35,418 nt of DNA from a virus, in IMG/VR virus record IMGVR_UViG_3300020463_000054, positions 1-35,418 of that record; one strand, given 5' to 3'. The translations under genes were made by a program, and so were the position numbers. Shown here one piece after another: positions 2,769 to 18,965 of the stretch; position 1 is the stretch's first letter, and every line of letters starts with the position of its first letter. A model generated the notes under the pieces. That model was not told the DNA's origin. It made no database searches and worked only from the letters and a program-made list of their open reading frames with translations.

Positions 2769-3686
2769 TTATTTGTTCTTATTTATATCTTCTATCCACT
2801 CCATTTTCTTGTTTATGAAGTGATATATTTTTGCCTTAGGATCTATATGTTTTGGTTCAGTTATTAATTCATCTACTAGCCAATGCCATTCTTTTGCCAT
2901 ATATTGTATTTGAATTTCTCGAGCTTTAACCCAGTATGAAAAGACGGTTTCGTTATCATAATTAAATACTCGTTGAATATTTTTTGGATACATCGAAAAC
3001 TCATCATGTTTTACTTCACTCATAAGTTTTATAATATAATCAAAGTCACGAAAATAATCTAGTCGTTTAATTACTTCTGATGATGCCGCCATAATCCCTG
3101 TATTAAACACATCATTCTCAGGATCATATCCTTCTTCCATAAGAAGAGCATGAGTATTCCAATATTTTGTGGCAGGATTACGTATGCAAAGGTTGTAGTC
3201 TTCTGACTTCATAACTTTACCACGTATTGCCAATCTATTAGATTCAGCAACTGCCAACATTTTATCTACATTATGTACTTGAAATATACAGTTAGTAGTA
3301 TTTGGTACAACATCAAAATCGAGATAACATACATAATTATATTCATCGGCTAAGTCCCTCATTACTCGATGCTTATAAAAGTTTACTATATCATATTCTG
3401 AGATCTCTGTAAACCTATTTTTTATATCATCAAAGAAATTTTTATATGTACTATCATACTGAAATAGTATATAGTCAGCACCTATATCATTTGCGTATTG
3501 TTTTTGCCGTTTAGTTACAAGTTCAGCGTTATTAAGTAAAGCAAGTTTAGTTACTTTACTTTTATTCGTTGTAACTTGTTTGCCTTGATCATACCATCCA
3601 GGATTATCTAAACGATCTTCCGGAATATCAATAAAAATACTGAATACTATTTTATTTTCCAATGACCGTAAACCTTTGAAAGTCAC
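2769..3686 (-). CDS. Glycosyltransferase-like protein (GT-A type)
   Basis: The longest reading is 305 residues. It has the layout of a GT-A nucleotide-sugar transferase: an early strand 'KIVFSIFIDI', then 'VCYLDFDVVPN' with a DxD motif at about D123/D125 for metal and nucleotide-sugar binding, then 'NDVFNTGIM', a common acceptor-side motif. Sugar donor and acceptor cannot be told. The GTG start at 3686 overlaps the previous gene and has no Shine-Dalgarno sequence. A TTG at 3662, preceded by AAAGG ten bases upstream, would start the protein just before the first strand and may be the true start. It is the last of three genes that look like a glycan-modification cassette inside the tail operon. 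Confidence 0.65.
   Translation of the reverse strand: MTFKGLRSLENKIVFSIFIDIPEDRLDNPGWYDQGKQVTTNKSKVTKLALLNNAELVTKRQKQYANDIGADYILFQYDSTYKNFFDDIKNRFTEISEYDIVNFYKHRVMRDLADEYNYVCYLDFDVVPNTTNCIFQVHNVDKMLAVAESNRLAIRGKVMKSEDYNLCIRNPATKYWNTHALLMEEGYDPENDVFNTGIMAASSEVIKRLDYFRDFDYIIKLMSEVKHDEFSMYPKNIQRVFNYDNETVFSYWVKAREIQIQYMAKEWHWLVDELITEPKHIDPKAKIYHFINKKMEWIEDINKNK
2780..2787 (-). promoter_or_regulatory. T4-type late promoter box for BppU-like/long-fibre unit
   Basis: The minus strand reads TATAAATAA, with the consensus box inside the last codons of the glycosyltransferase gene, 26 bases before the BppU-like ATG. It would give the outer fibre genes their own late transcript, separate from the glycosyltransferase cassette. 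Confidence 0.7.
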
Positions 3687-4275
3687 CTAGATCTAAAGTA
3701 TCAACATCAGCAACCCAATCAAGGCCTAAACTTTCTGCAAACATCTCGGCTGTAGGATAGCAATTAACATGAGAATCTAAATCAGTATAGTTATTTGACT
3801 GGAAAGCAACCCAACAACCAGGGTCTTTTGATTTAACTATATTAATTAAATCTTTTTGTTCCATATGCTCACAAGAGGTGTTTACAATCCCTGTATATTG
3901 TGTTATAATAAAAGAGTCACTTATGTTGAGGGTGGAGAATGCAATGTCTTCATCACCAAATAATTCATATCCAAACTCTTCGCACATAGGATCCATATCA
4001 GTAGATTCTATATTCATTTGGTTTTGCGGCCATTGCTTACGTAATTGATAAGCCATCATGCCGTACCATCCACCGAGTACTAATAATTTACCGGCGTCAT
4101 GATTATATAAGTCGTAAAACTTTTTTGCAAGATGTTCTTTTCCAACCCAATGATTATGGTCCATAGAGTGAGATAAATCTTTTATGCGATAGAGATCATC
4201 TACCCCATACATAGATTCGTTATACACTTTCTCGCTTAGTTTTATAGTTCGGTATAAGATCTCCGAATCGTACAT
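3652..4275 (-). CDS. SAM-dependent methyltransferase-like protein
   Basis: A 207-residue protein with class I methyltransferase features. These are a glycine-rich loop 'LLVLGGWYGM' (about residues 64-73), an acidic strand end 'IESTDMDP' (about 89-96), and a following strand 'GIVNTSCEHM' where motif IV normally lies. The fit is a pattern match; no substrate motif is visible. The ATG at 4275 is preceded by TGAGG six bases upstream, which supports this start even though it overlaps the end of the upstream glycosyltransferase gene by 56 bases. Its 3' end overlaps the next glycosyltransferase reading. The tight overlaps suggest coupled translation and a shared job, perhaps making or capping a modified sugar. 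Confidence 0.6.
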   Translation of the reverse strand: MYDSEILYRTIKLSEKVYNESMYGVDDLYRIKDLSHSMDHNHWVGKEHLAKKFYDLYNHDAGKLLVLGGWYGMMAYQLRKQWPQNQMNIESTDMDPMCEEFGYELFGDEDIAFSTLNISDSFIITQYTGIVNTSCEHMEQKDLINIVKSKDPGCWVAFQSNNYTDLDSHVNCYPTAEMFAESLGLDWVADVDTLDLGDFQRFTVIGK

Positions 4276-4924
4276 CTAATTCCTCAAACGATACAATGGC
4301 TGCATCTTTTATATTTTTATCGTATTTCATAGATCTTACAAAATCACGTTTAAACGTTTTCATGTTTATGTCTTCATGAGCCAAGAATCTATCCATGCCA
4401 CCTGAGTATTTTCTCATATAATAATCACGTAAACCATGATTACTAAAATGATTCCATATTTCAAATTGGCTTAGAGCATTCCACGACATTACAGAACTAT
4501 GTATAGTTACATCATAACTAGATAGTCTACCATATCTCTTTTTATCATTTTTCCACGGCGCGCCACACACGTGAAGTGTACTCCAGTCCTTTTCACCAAA
4601 GTGACTGAAACGTGTAAAGATACAATCTTGTACGAATGTATCTAAATCTAAATAAATATTGTAATGACCTTTTCTTACGTATGGCATAGAAGGATCAAAG
4701 AGACGTAACTTATTCCATACGCCTTTTAGTGTTGGATCTGTTTTAGCAGGGATAATATTAATACCATGCATTAATCCCTCTGGATTATCTGTATAACAAT
4801 AGAAATTAAGCCAACGATTTATATAATAGCCTCTGCTAAAATAGCAAATCTCTCTATAAAGTTTATTAACAAATTCAGAATCGTATTTGTTACCGAACTT
4901 AACTGTGAGTATGTTGTAAATCAT
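4220..4924 (-). CDS. Glycosyltransferase-like protein
   Basis: A 234-residue protein. The N-terminus 'MIYNILTVKFGNKYDSEFVN' looks like the first strand and loop of a nucleotide-sugar transferase. 'GVWNKLRLFD' and 'YLDLDTFVQD' follow, the latter containing a DxD motif at about D93/D95. The C-terminal half is rich in aromatic and basic residues. It belongs to the broad GT-A group but is not obviously a copy of the 305-residue neighbour. Its start overlaps the coiled-coil gene by 26 bases with no clear Shine-Dalgarno sequence, so translation is probably coupled. The target could be a virion fibre or a host surface glycan; the sequence does not decide. Confidence 0.6.
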   Translation of the reverse strand: MIYNILTVKFGNKYDSEFVNKLYREICYFSRGYYINRWLNFYCYTDNPEGLMHGINIIPAKTDPTLKGVWNKLRLFDPSMPYVRKGHYNIYLDLDTFVQDCIFTRFSHFGEKDWSTLHVCGAPWKNDKKRYGRLSSYDVTIHSSVMSWNALSQFEIWNHFSNHGLRDYYMRKYSGGMDRFLAHEDINMKTFKRDFVRSMKYDKNIKDAAIVSFEELDVRFGDLIPNYKTKRESV

Positions 4925-6032
4925 TTGTCATTTCATAATATACTGAAAATAATTCAGGAACAGTTTTTGCTTTTCGTACTTTCATTTTTAATTTTCTATC
5001 TTTATGGTTTTTAATCTCTGGTAAATTAAAAATTACTAATTTAGTTTTAAATACAGTATCTTCGTCTTGCATATTAGAAACTAACAATTTAGTTGCATTT
5101 TCAGGACTAAGATTTTCTTGATTAGGTTGTATAGTTCCTAATCTAAACTTATCCATAAAGTTTTGTTTTATATTTTTAATTTCCGTATCTTTAAGTACTT
5201 CTACTTCTTTATAACGAGTTTTTATCTGCTCATCAATTTCTATTTGTAAAGTTTGTAATTGCTGTTGCTTATATGCATCGGCATCTTCATATCTTTGTTT
5301 TATTTGAAGATCTACCTCAGCTTGAAGAACTTCTAATTGCTTTTCTCGATACGCTTCAACATCTTCAAAACCTTCTGCAATACGTTGTTGTACTTGAGCC
5401 TCTAACTTTGCTAACTCTTCTTCCTTATACTCATCTGCTTCTTTATATCGTCGTTCAACTTGCTCATCTAATTCTTTTTGTAATTCAGTTTTACGGTCTG
5501 ATATTTGTCTGTCTACTTCTGCTTGAATATCTCTGTATCCTTCACCTATTCTAATTTCAACCTGGCTATCTACTTCTGACTGTACATTTTTATATTCTTG
5601 ATCAATAGCTTCTTGAATTCCCTCATATCCTTCTTGTACGCGTCTTTCAACTTGCGCATCTGCTTCAGCTTGAAGTATTCCAAGTTGCTCTTCTTTATAT
5701 TTTTCAAAGAGTTCGTATCGCATTCTATCTTGCTCATCTATTTCTTTTTGAGCAATATGAACCCATTCTAAAAATTTTATTTCAGCTGCTTTTTCGATTG
5801 ATTTATATTTTTGATTACCTAATTCTGCATAGTAGTCTCGTGTACTATCATGAAGTTGGTCCATAGAATATTCTTTCAAGAGATCTAAGAAGTCTTGATT
5901 ATTATAATTTATTTCTAAAAAATATGCTGATTCTACATTAGCATCTGGAGTTTGTTTGTAGAGTACTTCAATAGTTTTTTCTCGTTCGTCTACAAATTTG
6001 GCTGATGTAATTTTACCAGAAAATATTGCCAT
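4899..6032 (-). CDS. Coiled-coil repeat protein, probable virion component
   Basis: A 377-residue protein. Residues about 100-290 are almost entirely charged heptad-like sequence in degenerate units of roughly 18-26 residues, for example 'AEVDLQIKQRYEDADAYKQQ' and 'IEIDEQIKTRYKEVEVLKD'. At least five units are visible, predicting one long alpha-helical coiled coil. The N-terminal 100 residues start 'MAIFSGKITSAKFVDE' and look globular; the C-terminal 80 residues are basic. AAAGG precedes the ATG. It sits between structural genes, so a rod or spacer in the baseplate periphery is plausible, but no family is recognised. It could also be a scaffold or an internal protein. Confidence 0.55.
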   Translation of the reverse strand: MAIFSGKITSAKFVDEREKTIEVLYKQTPDANVESAYFLEINYNNQDFLDLLKEYSMDQLHDSTRDYYAELGNQKYKSIEKAAEIKFLEWVHIAQKEIDEQDRMRYELFEKYKEEQLGILQAEADAQVERRVQEGYEGIQEAIDQEYKNVQSEVDSQVEIRIGEGYRDIQAEVDRQISDRKTELQKELDEQVERRYKEADEYKEEELAKLEAQVQQRIAEGFEDVEAYREKQLEVLQAEVDLQIKQRYEDADAYKQQQLQTLQIEIDEQIKTRYKEVEVLKDTEIKNIKQNFMDKFRLGTIQPNQENLSPENATKLLVSNMQDEDTVFKTKLVIFNLPEIKNHKDRKLKMKVRKAKTVPELFSVYYEMTNDLQHTHS

Positions 6033-14303: not shown

Positions 14304-15290
14304 CTAGCTCACTGTTCCGCCGTAGTTACTGACCAATTGCCAACTTGTTCCATCCCATATCATTGTGCATCCTTGATTATTTGCTAAAGCAATGCTAGTT
14401 CCTGGTCCAAAGGTGGCTGGTGTAATAGTAGCAGTACCAGCGTTCTTATTTGTAAATAGTTTATATTCCCCTACTGTCGTACCATTAGCCACTGTTATTG
14501 AAATTGATGTTCCAGAGTTTCCGACAATATATGATTTAGAAGTATCAGCAGCTCCTGTAGCCGTAATCACATCAGAAGAATAAGCTGCTTTTTCAATTTC
14601 GACCGATCCTGTTCCTTTACCACTTAAATTCAGATTAACATTAGGATCATCTCCACTAGCGCTAAGAAGAGGATTAGTACCTGTACCAGCGTTTTGTACG
14701 TTAACATGATTAACTGCACTTCCTGTTGCGGTAATACCAAAGACTTCAGCTCCGTTCACGTCTGCAATGTAACCACTAACTTTTGGTTGAGACATTGTAG
14801 GAGCTGTAAGAGTTTTATTTGTTAATGTCTGAGAAGCAGCAATTAAAGTAAGTGTATCACTATCAGATAGTGTTGGTATATTAAGATTGTGATTCGCAGT
14901 CAATGAACCCGCTATAAAATTATATGTGTGCGATGCATCATTATCTTGAACTTTTATGCCGCTTACTATTGGACCGGTAAGAGTTTTATTTGTAAGAGTC
15001 TGCGTGGCAGAATCAAGTAAAACTGCACCAGAAGCGTTTGGTAAATGAATAACATGATCGGCTGTGGGGTCAACGGCTCTTAAAACTGTTTCGTTTGGAT
15101 CTACCGTAGTTCCTTCAAAAGATATACCGCCAGCAGCTGCAGCAATTGCACCAACTAAAGTATTACTATCTCCACCGAGTTTTTGATAAAGCTCGACAAA
15201 ATTTTCATTAATTTTCTGGCTCGCTTGACGTAATGTATCACCACTTCCGTCATTGGCATACGTACCATTTGCTATGTTCTGACGAGTCAT
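14304..15290 (-). CDS. Tail fibre-like structural protein
   Basis: A 328-residue protein. The N-terminal attachment module is 'NDGSGDTLRQASQKINENFV', followed by 'ELYQKLGGD'. The shaft carries two 'QTLTNKTLT' motifs, common in phage tail fibres. The C-terminus has 'ITVANGTTVGEYKLF' and 'CTMIWDGTSWQLV', a small beta domain often found at the end of such proteins. GAGGT precedes the ATG. A perfect late promoter box lies 24 bases upstream, so this gene heads a transcription unit that continues into gp8 and the DUF4815 protein. Confidence 0.7.
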   Translation of the reverse strand: MTRQNIANGTYANDGSGDTLRQASQKINENFVELYQKLGGDSNTLVGAIAAAAGGISFEGTTVDPNETVLRAVDPTADHVIHLPNASGAVLLDSATQTLTNKTLTGPIVSGIKVQDNDASHTYNFIAGSLTANHNLNIPTLSDSDTLTLIAASQTLTNKTLTAPTMSQPKVSGYIADVNGAEVFGITATGSAVNHVNVQNAGTGTNPLLSASGDDPNVNLNLSGKGTGSVEIEKAAYSSDVITATGAADTSKSYIVGNSGTSISITVANGTTVGEYKLFTNKNAGTATITPATFGPGTSIALANNQGCTMIWDGTSWQLVSNYGGTVS

Positions 15291-15313: not shown

Positions 15314-15321
15314 TATTTATA
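15314..15321 (-). promoter_or_regulatory. T4-type late promoter box for second fibre/gp8 unit
   Basis: The minus strand reads TATAAATAG, a perfect consensus overlapping the protease stop codon and ending 24 bases before the next ATG at 15290. It probably starts the unit with the 328-residue fibre protein, gp8 and the DUF4815 protein. Confidence 0.75.
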
Positions 15322-17365
15322 CTACTTTATCGAAGTGTCCGGCGGTTATCGCTAAAGGACCTTCCATTTTAAAATCTGCAGGATATGGAGTATTTATAGG
15401 TATCGTGGCAGCGTATAATACTCTGCGATCAGCACCTTGTAAAGCATTAAAATCACTCGACCAACTACCACCGGCTGTTGTAACTTCAGTTCCTTCATAC
15501 ATGTCAGAGCTCGGTTGTTCTTCTACGTTTGTTTGAATCCAATTACGAAGATTTTCATATGTCCAGCTTCTATTGTATTGCATAACGACGGCCATCATCC
15601 CTGCACCAACTGGGCATGCTGCGCTTGTACCACTAAACCTTGTATCTCTACATGCAGAGATAGCAGTTAAATCAGCGTATTCTCCATCACTTCTACTTGT
15701 GTCAGTTCCGTAAGATGCATCTGGACACGCGGCGAGTGTTCCATCTCCAGGAGCAAAGAAATCAATTGCATTTCCGCAATCACTATAACTCACTTTTCTA
15801 TCTTGATCATAGCTATTAGTCATGTCATCGTCTAAACAACCAACATTGATTGCAGGAAATTTAACCGTAGTATTTCCTTGAAACGTTTGACTTACTGTTT
15901 TTCCTATGTGTTGTGGAAATCCTCTACGATTAGTAGATCCTGTTACACTATAGCCAAATTCACTGAACGTATCTTGATAAAAACTATTTGTATTATTATT
16001 TGAAATACGATTATCATAATTAGGATGATCAGGATTATATTGTGGCTGATTACTATTTCCAGCTGCAGTTACCATAATGACACCTGCTTGAGTTAATTCG
16101 TCTCCAGCCTGTGTCGTACTATTATCATAATGTTCGCTTTTCCAACGACCACCGTCACCCATCAAACCTAACCAACTAATATAGTTTGGTTCGTCTGATG
16201 TTCCACTATAAGAGGTAGCTCCATCTGTTCTAAAGTAATAATAAGTTCCACCTTTAGTGGATGATCTAAATCCCCAGCTATTTGAACTAATTGTAGGATC
16301 TTTTGTGCCAAAGATAGGATTATTAGGTTTATATGTGTGAAATATTTTTTGTACGTCAAATCCGATTTCAAAACTACCTACATTATAACCACTACCATAT
16401 AAGTTTAGATGCCACTTATTTGCATTGTATGCCCACCCGTGTGTACGACCGTATATTAAACTAGCACATTGTGTACCATGATCTGCATCATATGCTGACG
16501 TCGACGGACTGCCATGTACATTGTCTCGAGTATAAGCAGTAGATACAAAAATATTTCCAAATGCAGCAAACGATGAACTACGCTGAGACGAATTTCTCCA
16601 CCAGTTTTGAGCTGCAGATTCAGTCGGTACAACCGTGCCATCCCATCGTGTTTCTAATCTACTTGTATCTGCGTTAAACCAATCTGGATCAATGTAATAA
16701 GGACCATCAAGAACAACATCTAATACGTCACAATATCCTGCCCGATTTAAAACGTTACCTGGCTTATAATCAACAGGATTTACCGCATTTTTTACGCCTT
16801 TATTAATAAATTCTGTATGTGCTATCCATGTGCCGTTATCAGCACATATGACATCAACATTCTCACCTCCACCTTGTTGTTGTACTTTAGAGCTTATAGC
16901 TACGTTTTCATTGGTTGTTGCAGTCTTCCACGGATTTTGTTTTGTTTGCATTCGGTATAGCGCGGTAGTCCTATTAACTGTCGGTTCAGCTCCACTAAAA
17001 TTACCTTGAATAGACGAACTTCCTACTGTCCACATTTGGTAATTATTATATGCGGTATCCCATCGATCTTTTGCTGTTCCCCATATTTGATTTTTTAATT
17101 CGTCAGGAGGTGGCATATATGTTTCAGGGTATCTGTTTGGACTTTCATTAATTATTTTAACACGATCATCGGATTGCAAAGCAGTTGACTCTTCTTCTGT
17201 TAATGAAAATTCACCACGTACATCACTGTGTTCTTTTGTATCAGTACAATCGACTGCTCTATCTGGTATTGTCTCCGGAGTTGAATCAGATGTTATAAGC
17301 TCTGCGCTTATTTCATCAAATTGTTCCTTTGTATATGTTGTTAGTACGTAATACTTTTCGCTCAT
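15317..17365 (-). CDS. Subtilisin-like serine protease (S8 family)
   Basis: A 682-residue protein with a full set of subtilase landmarks. These are a candidate catalytic Asp in 'VDVICADNGTW' (about D176), the His in 'DADHGTQCASLIYG' (about H296), 'SSNSWG' at about 361, the oxyanion Asn in 'VTAAGN' (about N437), 'AIDFFAPGDG' at about 533, and the catalytic Ser in 'FSGTSAACP' (about S581). The Asp motif is less standard than the others. The first 80 residues could be an inhibitory prodomain; no signal peptide is seen. The gene lies between two fibre genes in the tail operon. It may therefore be carried on the virion to cut host surface proteins, or it may process a fibre or itself. It is not the T4-type prohead protease gp21. 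Confidence 0.85.
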   Translation of the reverse strand: MSEKYYVLTTYTKEQFDEISAELITSDSTPETIPDRAVDCTDTKEHSDVRGEFSLTEEESTALQSDDRVKIINESPNRYPETYMPPPDELKNQIWGTAKDRWDTAYNNYQMWTVGSSSIQGNFSGAEPTVNRTTALYRMQTKQNPWKTATTNENVAISSKVQQQGGGENVDVICADNGTWIAHTEFINKGVKNAVNPVDYKPGNVLNRAGYCDVLDVVLDGPYYIDPDWFNADTSRLETRWDGTVVPTESAAQNWWRNSSQRSSSFAAFGNIFVSTAYTRDNVHGSPSTSAYDADHGTQCASLIYGRTHGWAYNANKWHLNLYGSGYNVGSFEIGFDVQKIFHTYKPNNPIFGTKDPTISSNSWGFRSSTKGGTYYYFRTDGATSYSGTSDEPNYISWLGLMGDGGRWKSEHYDNSTTQAGDELTQAGVIMVTAAGNSNQPQYNPDHPNYDNRISNNNTNSFYQDTFSEFGYSVTGSTNRRGFPQHIGKTVSQTFQGNTTVKFPAINVGCLDDDMTNSYDQDRKVSYSDCGNAIDFFAPGDGTLAACPDASYGTDTSRSDGEYADLTAISACRDTRFSGTSAACPVGAGMMAVVMQYNRSWTYENLRNWIQTNVEEQPSSDMYEGTEVTTAGGSWSSDFNALQGADRRVLYAATIPINTPYPADFKMEGPLAITAGHFDKVV

Positions 17366-17369
17366 TTTA

Positions 17370-18965
17370 TCACACTATGTTTATTGTGTTACCCATACCC
17401 GAGTGTGCAGTACATTGATAGTACAATGTAGATGGCGCACCCATCGGAACTTTAAATACGACCGTTCCTACGGCCTGTGTATTTCCTGTTATACCATCAG
17501 CATATGCAGACCCACCATTACTTACACGAATTTCAAATGGATGGCCACTTGCATTTACAACAAAATAATAGGTTTCGCCTCTACGCAAATAGAGAACAGG
17601 ATCGTTTGTCGTCGACGTAAACCAATGATTCTCTGGATCTGAGAATGTGTAATCGCTTGCTCCGCTATTGCCAACGTTAAATACATTAGAACCCTTTGTC
17701 ATCGGATGCCACGCACTATGCTCGTATATTTCCATTTGATTATTATCAGAGTTGTAAATGATTTCACCATTAGATGCTGATAACGAATTACGCTGTGATG
17801 TTGTCATATTGCCAACTCTAAATCCACCGCCTACACCGCCACTGCTGTCACTATTTAAACTAATTGTTACAGAAGCACTCGTAACCATATTAATATCAGT
17901 TGATGATGTAAGAGTAGGTGTGCCAGTTGATTGCGATGTAATATTATCAACTACAAGTCCAGTAGAATTAAAATATCCTACATCTGTACCACCTATTTTA
18001 ATATCGATCTGATCATCAGTACTTGCATGAAAACTTGTATTAGCATTTTGATCTAGTATTAGCTCACTACCGTTCATGTCAATTGATTGACCCTGAGCAA
18101 CGTATGTATTACTGTCTATCGAATATGTTCCGGATCCATTAGTTTTCATAAATCCTGCACTTGCAAAGTCTCCATCTACAAGTACATCAGCATGAGATGT
18201 TTCACTTGTTAGATATGATTGCAAATCACTTATCTGAGATTCAGTAATTGACAAAGCAGCTTGATGAGCTGTTACATCACTTTGAGTTACAGTATAACTT
18301 GTTAGATAGCTCGATAAGTCTGGCGGTGTGTAAGTAGTTACACCGGTGGAATTATTATATGATAAGTTAGCAGAACCCGCTGCAGCGACCGATACGCTGA
18401 AGTCTGTATATGCTAGACCTCCACCGCCTCCACCGCCACTTACGTCAGTAGCAGCTATAAACATTCCTTGCGCTGAATCCCATTTAAGGATTTTATTGTT
18501 TGCAATACCAGACATGTTAACGTTAGATAATTCACCGATACTATCAATGCCTTCTCTTGCTTGCACATATGCACTATCAATAAGCGCAATAGTCTTGGCC
18601 GAGTCAATTCCTGTACCGACATCGTCATAGTCTGCTAATTTTATCCAAGCTCCGCCATGTGCATAATATGCTTTTCCTTCACCGTGCACGTGAGCAAACA
18701 TACCATGATAATCACCTGCACTTGGTAATGCACCAAGAGAATCATAGTTATTTGAATATAATATTTTGTGTGTTCCGAAATTTACGTCAGAATCACCTGC
18801 TATTTGATTTAAGTTTGTTGTAAAAACTTGTGCGTTATCTAATGCTTGTGCAATAGATGTAACCGCCGCTGAATCTAAATCAGCACCTTGCAGTGTGGTA
18901 AAGTTGGCATCGAGTTCGACGTGGGTCAATGCCGTCCCTTTAGTATTTCTTAATGTGATTGCCAT
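17370..18965 (-). CDS. Tail fibre protein with C-terminal cupredoxin-like domain
   Basis: A 531-residue protein. The N-terminus 'NTKGTALTHVELDANFTTLQ' is a common virion-attachment module, and the middle is a Ser/Asp-rich shaft with a glycine run near residue 180. The last 90 residues look like a cupredoxin: 'RRGETYYFVVNASGHPFEIR' with His475, then 'VVFKVPMGAPSTLYYQC' with Cys518, and 'TAHSGMGN' with His521 and Met524. The order His...Cys-x2-His-x2-Met is that of the type 1 copper site of amicyanin. Similar C-terminal domains occur in marine phage structural proteins, usually unannotated. Copper binding is inferred, not shown. GAGGT lies upstream of the ATG. Confidence 0.75.
   Translation of the reverse strand: MAITLRNTKGTALTHVELDANFTTLQGADLDSAAVTSIAQALDNAQVFTTNLNQIAGDSDVNFGTHKILYSNNYDSLGALPSAGDYHGMFAHVHGEGKAYYAHGGAWIKLADYDDVGTGIDSAKTIALIDSAYVQAREGIDSIGELSNVNMSGIANNKILKWDSAQGMFIAATDVSGGGGGGGLAYTDFSVSVAAAGSANLSYNNSTGVTTYTPPDLSSYLTSYTVTQSDVTAHQAALSITESQISDLQSYLTSETSHADVLVDGDFASAGFMKTNGSGTYSIDSNTYVAQGQSIDMNGSELILDQNANTSFHASTDDQIDIKIGGTDVGYFNSTGLVVDNITSQSTGTPTLTSSTDINMVTSASVTISLNSDSSGGVGGGFRVGNMTTSQRNSLSASNGEIIYNSDNNQMEIYEHSAWHPMTKGSNVFNVGNSGASDYTFSDPENHWFTSTTNDPVLYLRRGETYYFVVNASGHPFEIRVSNGGSAYADGITGNTQAVGTVVFKVPMGAPSTLYYQCTAHSGMGNTINIV

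Follow-up and report, generated by a model that had tools for sequence, protein, structure and literature searches.

Residues 429-531 of a 531-residue phage fibre protein very likely form a cupredoxin domain, as predicted by structure modelling, at the C-terminal end of the chain. The isolated domain is likely to bind copper; no metal data are available and the metal is inferred. The evidence tips, by a modest margin, towards a broader explanation in which this domain is a copper-binding, exchangeable and conserved distal head, carried by baseplate fibres and, in related phages, by subtilases linked to the virion.

The fibre protein and its genomic context

The window, that is the whole stretch of DNA analysed here, is a 35.4-kb virus record bearing a T4-like baseplate operon. 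The features required for the argument are as follows.

17370-18965, minus strand: 531-residue baseplate-associated fibre with a C-terminal predicted cupredoxin head (matches to phrog_677 and phrog_9729, site amid baseplate genes)
17373-17681, minus strand: predicted cupredoxin head domain, fibre residues 429-531 (AlphaFold2 model, Foldseek, VIA-align, PDB profile matches)
15317-17365, minus strand: subtilase (PF00082, E 4.2e-16; phrog_9158), directly downstream of the fibre
14304-15290, minus strand: 328-residue protein with the T4 gp9/gp10 N-terminal domain and without a cupredoxin head, matching positions 1-298 of phrog_677

The members of the baseplate operon include gp25-like, gp6-like and gp8-like wedge proteins, a hub/lysozyme protein, an amidase and a tail tube protein. 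Judged from the gp6-like protein, phage C48C1 (42%) and Methylophilales phages (33%) are the nearest isolates. Fibre residues 198-531 match positions 122-409 of the phrog_677 profile (baseplate wedge tail fiber protein connector; E 2.2e-44) and a match to phrog_9729 (tail fiber protein) lies near the fibre N-terminus. No match to PF07880, the T4 gp9/10 N-terminal domain, was found in the 531-residue fibre by a Pfam scan. Since this domain sits in the 328-residue neighbour, the fibre is gp9-like by its head and is not a full gp9.

Two further regions of the window were noted. A 377-residue protein (4899-6032, minus strand), without a PHROG match, contains long coiled-coil-like repeats each spanning about 30 residues, and three successive genes at the end of the structural operon (2769-4924, minus strand) resemble, by eye, glycosyltransferase- or methyltransferase-type enzymes.

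Fold of the C-terminal head

Both the model and the profile used to search the PDB derive from 107 aligned relatives that had been filtered for the C/H/M loop and whose mean column identity is 36%. The C-terminal 110 residues were modelled by AlphaFold2 with a pLDDT of 94.9 and a pTM of 0.88, and include eight strands. Comparison with the PDB using Foldseek gave 30 matches at E<=0.001, comprising rusticyanin, Cu nitrite reductase, plastocyanin, amicyanin, AcoP, laccase and chains of cytochrome oxidase complexes, and VIA-align superimposed 93 residues on the plastocyanin-like domain of 2dv6 (Z 10.1, rmsd 2.4 A). When the 107-sequence profile was compared with PDB sequences, 57 chains were matched, all of them cupredoxins or cupredoxin-bearing enzymes by name, with E-values of 3.8e-5 for plastocyanin, 4.4e-5 for rusticyanin and 1.3e-4 for amicyanin. 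A single-sequence search of the PDB gave weak matches to plastocyanin and pseudoazurin, and significance was reached only with the 107-row profile. The requirements for membership of the cupredoxin superfamily, an eight-stranded Greek-key β sandwich and profile similarity to solved members, are both met.

In the model, His475 lies just before strand 4, Cys518 ends strand 7, and His521 and Met524 are located in the loop between strands 7 and 8. This predicted placement is the classical arrangement of blue copper proteins; distances between the ligands were not measured. In the printed profile alignments, the same four residues fall on the copper-ligand residues of plastocyanin and rusticyanin.

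In a Pfam scan the window head remains below every cupredoxin cut-off. Its direct assignment to a Pfam family was rejected, the sole match (PF25489) being sub-threshold (17.7 vs 27 bits, E 0.0036). Among other phage copies, L108 (33.5) and L128 (25.1) exceed the Copper-bind cut-off of 21.2, and L108 (31.7) also exceeds the Cupredoxin_1 cut-off of 27.

The model of the full-length fibre is poor (pLDDT 55.6), with low confidence except in the head. The placement of the head at the tip therefore rests on its C-terminal position, which is read directly in the sequence.

Predicted ligand set and its conservation

The predicted ligands are encoded at the following positions.

17541-17543, minus strand: His475, first predicted copper ligand, in the loop before strand 4 (sequence, conservation, profile alignment)
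17412-17414, minus strand: Cys518, predicted copper ligand and the only Cys of the protein (sequence, conservation, profile alignment)
17403-17405, minus strand: His521, predicted copper ligand (sequence, conservation, profile alignment)
17394-17396, minus strand: Met524, predicted axial ligand at Cys+6 (conservation, profile alignment)

The ligand set can be seen in the sequence, with the spacing H-x42-C-x2-H-x2-M; shuffling the last 102 residues produced the pattern H-x(30-60)-C-x2-H-x2-M in 30 of 200,000 trials. The type 1 requirement for a conserved His...Cys...His...Met order with the Cys ending strand 7 is fulfilled. It is likely that His475, Cys518, His521 and Met524 together hold one copper ion in type 1 geometry with a loop of amicyanin length, an inference made without measured distances.

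Among the 107 diverse relatives, a set pre-filtered for the C/H/M loop, the only invariant columns are H475, Y516, C518, H521 and M524. In an unfiltered set of 198 sequences, where only rows having a residue at the position were counted, Cys518 is retained in 162/167, His521 in 162/163 and Met524 in 160/163. These 198 non-redundant copies have a median identity of 37% to the window domain (lowest 16%) and 160 of them possess all four ligands; most of the rest either run off the fetched DNA or are internal repeats poor in ligands. A His box together with a C-x(2-4)-H-x2-M loop is present in 163/163 distinct C-terminal copies, at identities down to about 30%, and the same patterns are met by 112/138 internal copies. 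These patterns miss a few true sites (e.g. in L144), and some internal copies are partial. The relatives were fetched by similarity to ligand-bearing queries, one of the six search peptides covering the Cys and His.

The fold profile still recognises internal copies in other fibres that have lost the Cys, His or Met, for example residues 565-676 of Syn9 protein 103. Because such copies stay folded, the cupredoxin fold does not need its ligands; terminal heads nevertheless do not lose them. This bears on the notion of a relic fold, in which a former cupredoxin would be retained merely as a β-sandwich head and its residues conserved by descent. The ligand-poor copies of other fibres support this notion, in that they imply a fold usable without metal. 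However, all C-terminal copies retain the four ligands while neighbouring positions vary widely, and we regard a relic as very unlikely.

The ligand Cys is the sole cysteine in 90 of the 145 complete ORFs with a terminal copy. A lone Cys might serve another chemistry, such as an inter-chain disulfide or a thiol link to either host or protease, the His and Met residues being incidental. Its being the only Cys of the chain in the window fibre and in many relatives is consistent with this idea, but the equally strict His475, His521 and Met524 would be left unexplained, which makes this explanation highly improbable.

Extra internal copies of the cupredoxin fold were also observed in large downstream fibre proteins of other loci (L095, 5316-9476; L104, 3250-6240; L047; L064-L066). 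They are of the HPMQFSTT...YYYCKxHRYMSG type, some ligand-complete and some without the Cys or a His.

The possibility that Met524 is a non-ligand Met of the pseudoazurin type (Cys+6), with the true ligand at Cys+8, was considered and rejected. Whereas Cys+6 is Met, nearly all relatives have Gly or Asn at Cys+8, so that Met524 is the only axial candidate. Moreover, the profile aligns Met524 with the axial Met of plastocyanin and rusticyanin.

A further alternative is that zinc or another soft metal occupies the site in vivo in a purely structural role, like the iron or zinc of other phage fibres. Metal ions occur in known fibre tips, for example iron in T4 gp37 (PMC11705849). Type 1 sites also bind zinc if copper is absent. 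Against this, cupredoxin folds bearing a His-Cys-His-Met set are of the copper type and the 57 PDB profile matches are copper proteins; we consider this alternative unlikely.

The second shell of the site is distinctive. The residue following the first ligand His is Pro in 104/107 relatives (Pro476 in the window), whereas alignments of plastocyanin show His-Asn. The residue two after the Cys is mostly Phe, Ala, Leu, Ile or Asn and, among the residues seen, never Pro, whereas plastocyanin has Pro. The window head thus does not satisfy a typical, though not universal, type 1 requirement for Asn (or Ser) after the first ligand His. In azurin and plastocyanin, the second-shell positions control backbone hydrogen bonds to the Cys sulphur, and for this reason the site of the head may possibly differ in potential and colour. 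The difference from plastocyanin in the second shell leads us to view the head as a distinct cupredoxin branch.

An earlier note, made from the sequence alone, had described a cupredoxin-like domain with a complete, amicyanin-type set of type 1 ligands in about the last 90 residues of the fibre (17370-17660). The length of 531 residues and the positions of His475, Cys518, His521 and Met524 held exactly, while the extent held in part, the domain being slightly longer. The cupredoxin-like assignment held, since structure prediction and comparison gave a confident cupredoxin fold. A fold placing the four residues far apart, which would have refuted it, was not borne out: the strands of the model and the profile alignments give a blue-copper arrangement, with distances unmeasured. 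The completeness of the type 1 set is upheld by sequence, conservation and profile alignment, copper binding itself being inferred. The amicyanin-type label held in part: the order and loop length fit, but the second-shell signature does not. The relic fold that the note also offered is disfavoured by the conservation of the ligands.

Linkage to a subtilase

The subtilase encoded next to the fibre shows HGT and GTS motifs, and a motif check found no cupredoxin loop in its own sequence. A subtilase is located downstream of the fibre in 27 of the 45 distinct relatives having enough sequence. Fusion of a subtilase to the head was detected in 32 ORFs by pairwise search, and PF00082 scored above its cut-off in 10/10 of the fusion ORFs scanned. 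The fusion set was largely fetched using a fused query, and the frequency of fusions is therefore not a population estimate. Pairing of protease and cupredoxin, a linkage visible at the sequence level, is recurrent in marine phages.

Subtilases adjoining or fused to one or more cupredoxin copies were seen at loci L128, L138, L143, L144, L148, L108 and L111.

Distribution and presence in virions

A tblastn search located the head in 360 phage records, overwhelmingly from Synechococcus and Prochlorococcus phages, and predicted viral-protein structures include many copies of it. Its carriers are usually annotated as baseplate wedge tail fiber connector, tail spike or hypothetical protein, with no mention of copper. 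The head, whose copper site the earlier note had called unexpected at the end of a phage fibre, is neither rare nor unique to the window fibre, since cyanophage gp9-like proteins and phage subtilases also carry it at their C-terminus.

A few bacterial contigs also carry the head, some seemingly phage-derived and others resembling cell-surface proteins. Bacterial carriers (L090, L092, L085 and L089) include, for example, Psychroflexus tropicus and a gammaproteobacterial lipoprotein-like protein.

The protein S-SZBM1_206 (L100) carries the head, with a single Cys (HPF...CTIHSGM). Published mass spectrometry of virions purified on CsCl detected it through 9 peptides, at a coverage of 24.9% (PMC9146016). 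These data indicate that a head-carrying protein is part of at least one phage particle.

No phage structural cupredoxin was described in the literature searched, and the papers found there that combine cupredoxins and phages were unrelated by title. The main text of Sullivan et al. 2010 (PMC3037559) mentions neither gp9 nor copper. The head is widespread in T4-like marine phages and, within the literature searched, apparently not recognised as a cupredoxin so far.

Proposed working and its implications

We propose that the N-terminus of the fibre would dock onto the baseplate, with the head facing outward. The head would be synthesised metal-free in a copper-poor cytoplasm and would acquire copper after release. 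Cytoplasmic copper is kept extremely low, and it is for this reason that uptake is placed after lysis. The bound ion would lock the tip loop and shield the lone thiol. The stiff head would make a conserved contact with the host surface and may help to bring the neighbouring protease to that surface. Copper as the metal, its loading after release, locking of the tip, contact with the host and positioning of the protease are inferred only.

Mean pairwise identity among close fibre homologues is 76% for the head and 61-70% for the stalk, and is highest (87.5%) for an N-terminal motif. The strong conservation of the head favours a general role over the tuning of host range.

It is also possible, though less likely, that the head is a cupredoxin-fold adhesin which binds copper for recognition. 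It would then dock onto a copper or redox protein of the host outer membrane, or onto a receptor for metal uptake. Such a scheme would transfer the iron Trojan Horse idea to copper. Phage fibres generally touch the host with their C-terminal heads, and iron in tail fibres has been put forward in print for marine phages (PMC11705849). In addition, the carriers are mostly marine cyanophages, and their hosts use copper proteins. However, a receptor-binding tip tuned to its host would not be expected to exceed the stalk in conservation, nor to recur on subtilases and in phages with different hosts, as this head does; to our knowledge, no receptor has been identified. The roles suggested in the earlier note, stabilisation of the tip or binding of host metal or redox proteins, cannot be separated using these data.

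A bolder reading, less likely than not, may be entertained as a possibility. The virions of many T4-like marine phages could be blue-copper particles, with a type 1 site in the head of each baseplate fibre. In this reading the site would take up copper from seawater following lysis and would be required for a metal- or redox-dependent contact with the host, acting in concert with a virion-borne subtilase that has the head in common.

Confirmation of copper would mean that, in a very common class of ocean phages, cupredoxin metal sites are exposed on the face presented to the host. It would also give a name to the head domain of hundreds of fibres and proteases whose annotations say no more than hypothetical or baseplate protein, and make a clean colour or metal test feasible on the 110-residue domain. 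On the same condition, copper would join the debate on iron in phage tails, and the stability or infectivity of virions would be tied to the speciation of copper in seawater.

Comparison with known systems

The head shares with plastocyanin, amicyanin and pseudoazurin (PF00127, Copper-bind) the predicted cupredoxin fold, the His...Cys-x2-His...Met set and a significant profile match. The proteins of this group are free electron carriers, whereas the head is part of a phage fibre, has His-Pro in place of His-Asn and is without the Pro before the loop His. The C-x2-H-x2-M loop length of amicyanin is also that of the head. However, amicyanin is a free periplasmic electron carrier of methylamine dehydrogenase while the head belongs to a 531-residue fibre in a baseplate operon, and no redox partner genes were noticed within the window. 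Because its second-shell signature differs, the head is not an amicyanin. The At5g54830-like domain (PF25489), named after a plant protein, is reached by the bacterial relative L090 (31.5 vs 27 bits), whereas the window head scores below the cut-off.

The iron HxH sites of the T4 gp37 and Alteromonas phage R22Y fibres provide a precedent for metal ions within a phage fibre (PMC11705849). Those sites consist of HxH pairs and hold iron, in contrast to the single-chain cupredoxin site for presumed copper in the window head.

Cyanophage gp9-like proteins (phrog_677; P-SSM4 gp9, Syn9 ABA47071 and S-SZBM1_206) resemble the window fibre in their C-terminal head, the four residues and their position in a baseplate operon, but the window fibre is without the gp9/10 N-terminal Pfam domain. 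A subtilase of the phrog_9158 type and a cupredoxin head are also neighbours in P-SSM2 (PSSM2_297-298), and predicted-structure entries from ACG-2014e/h that match the head bear the name Peptidase S8/S53. In contrast to the fused phage subtilases, the window keeps the fibre head and the subtilase as separate genes.
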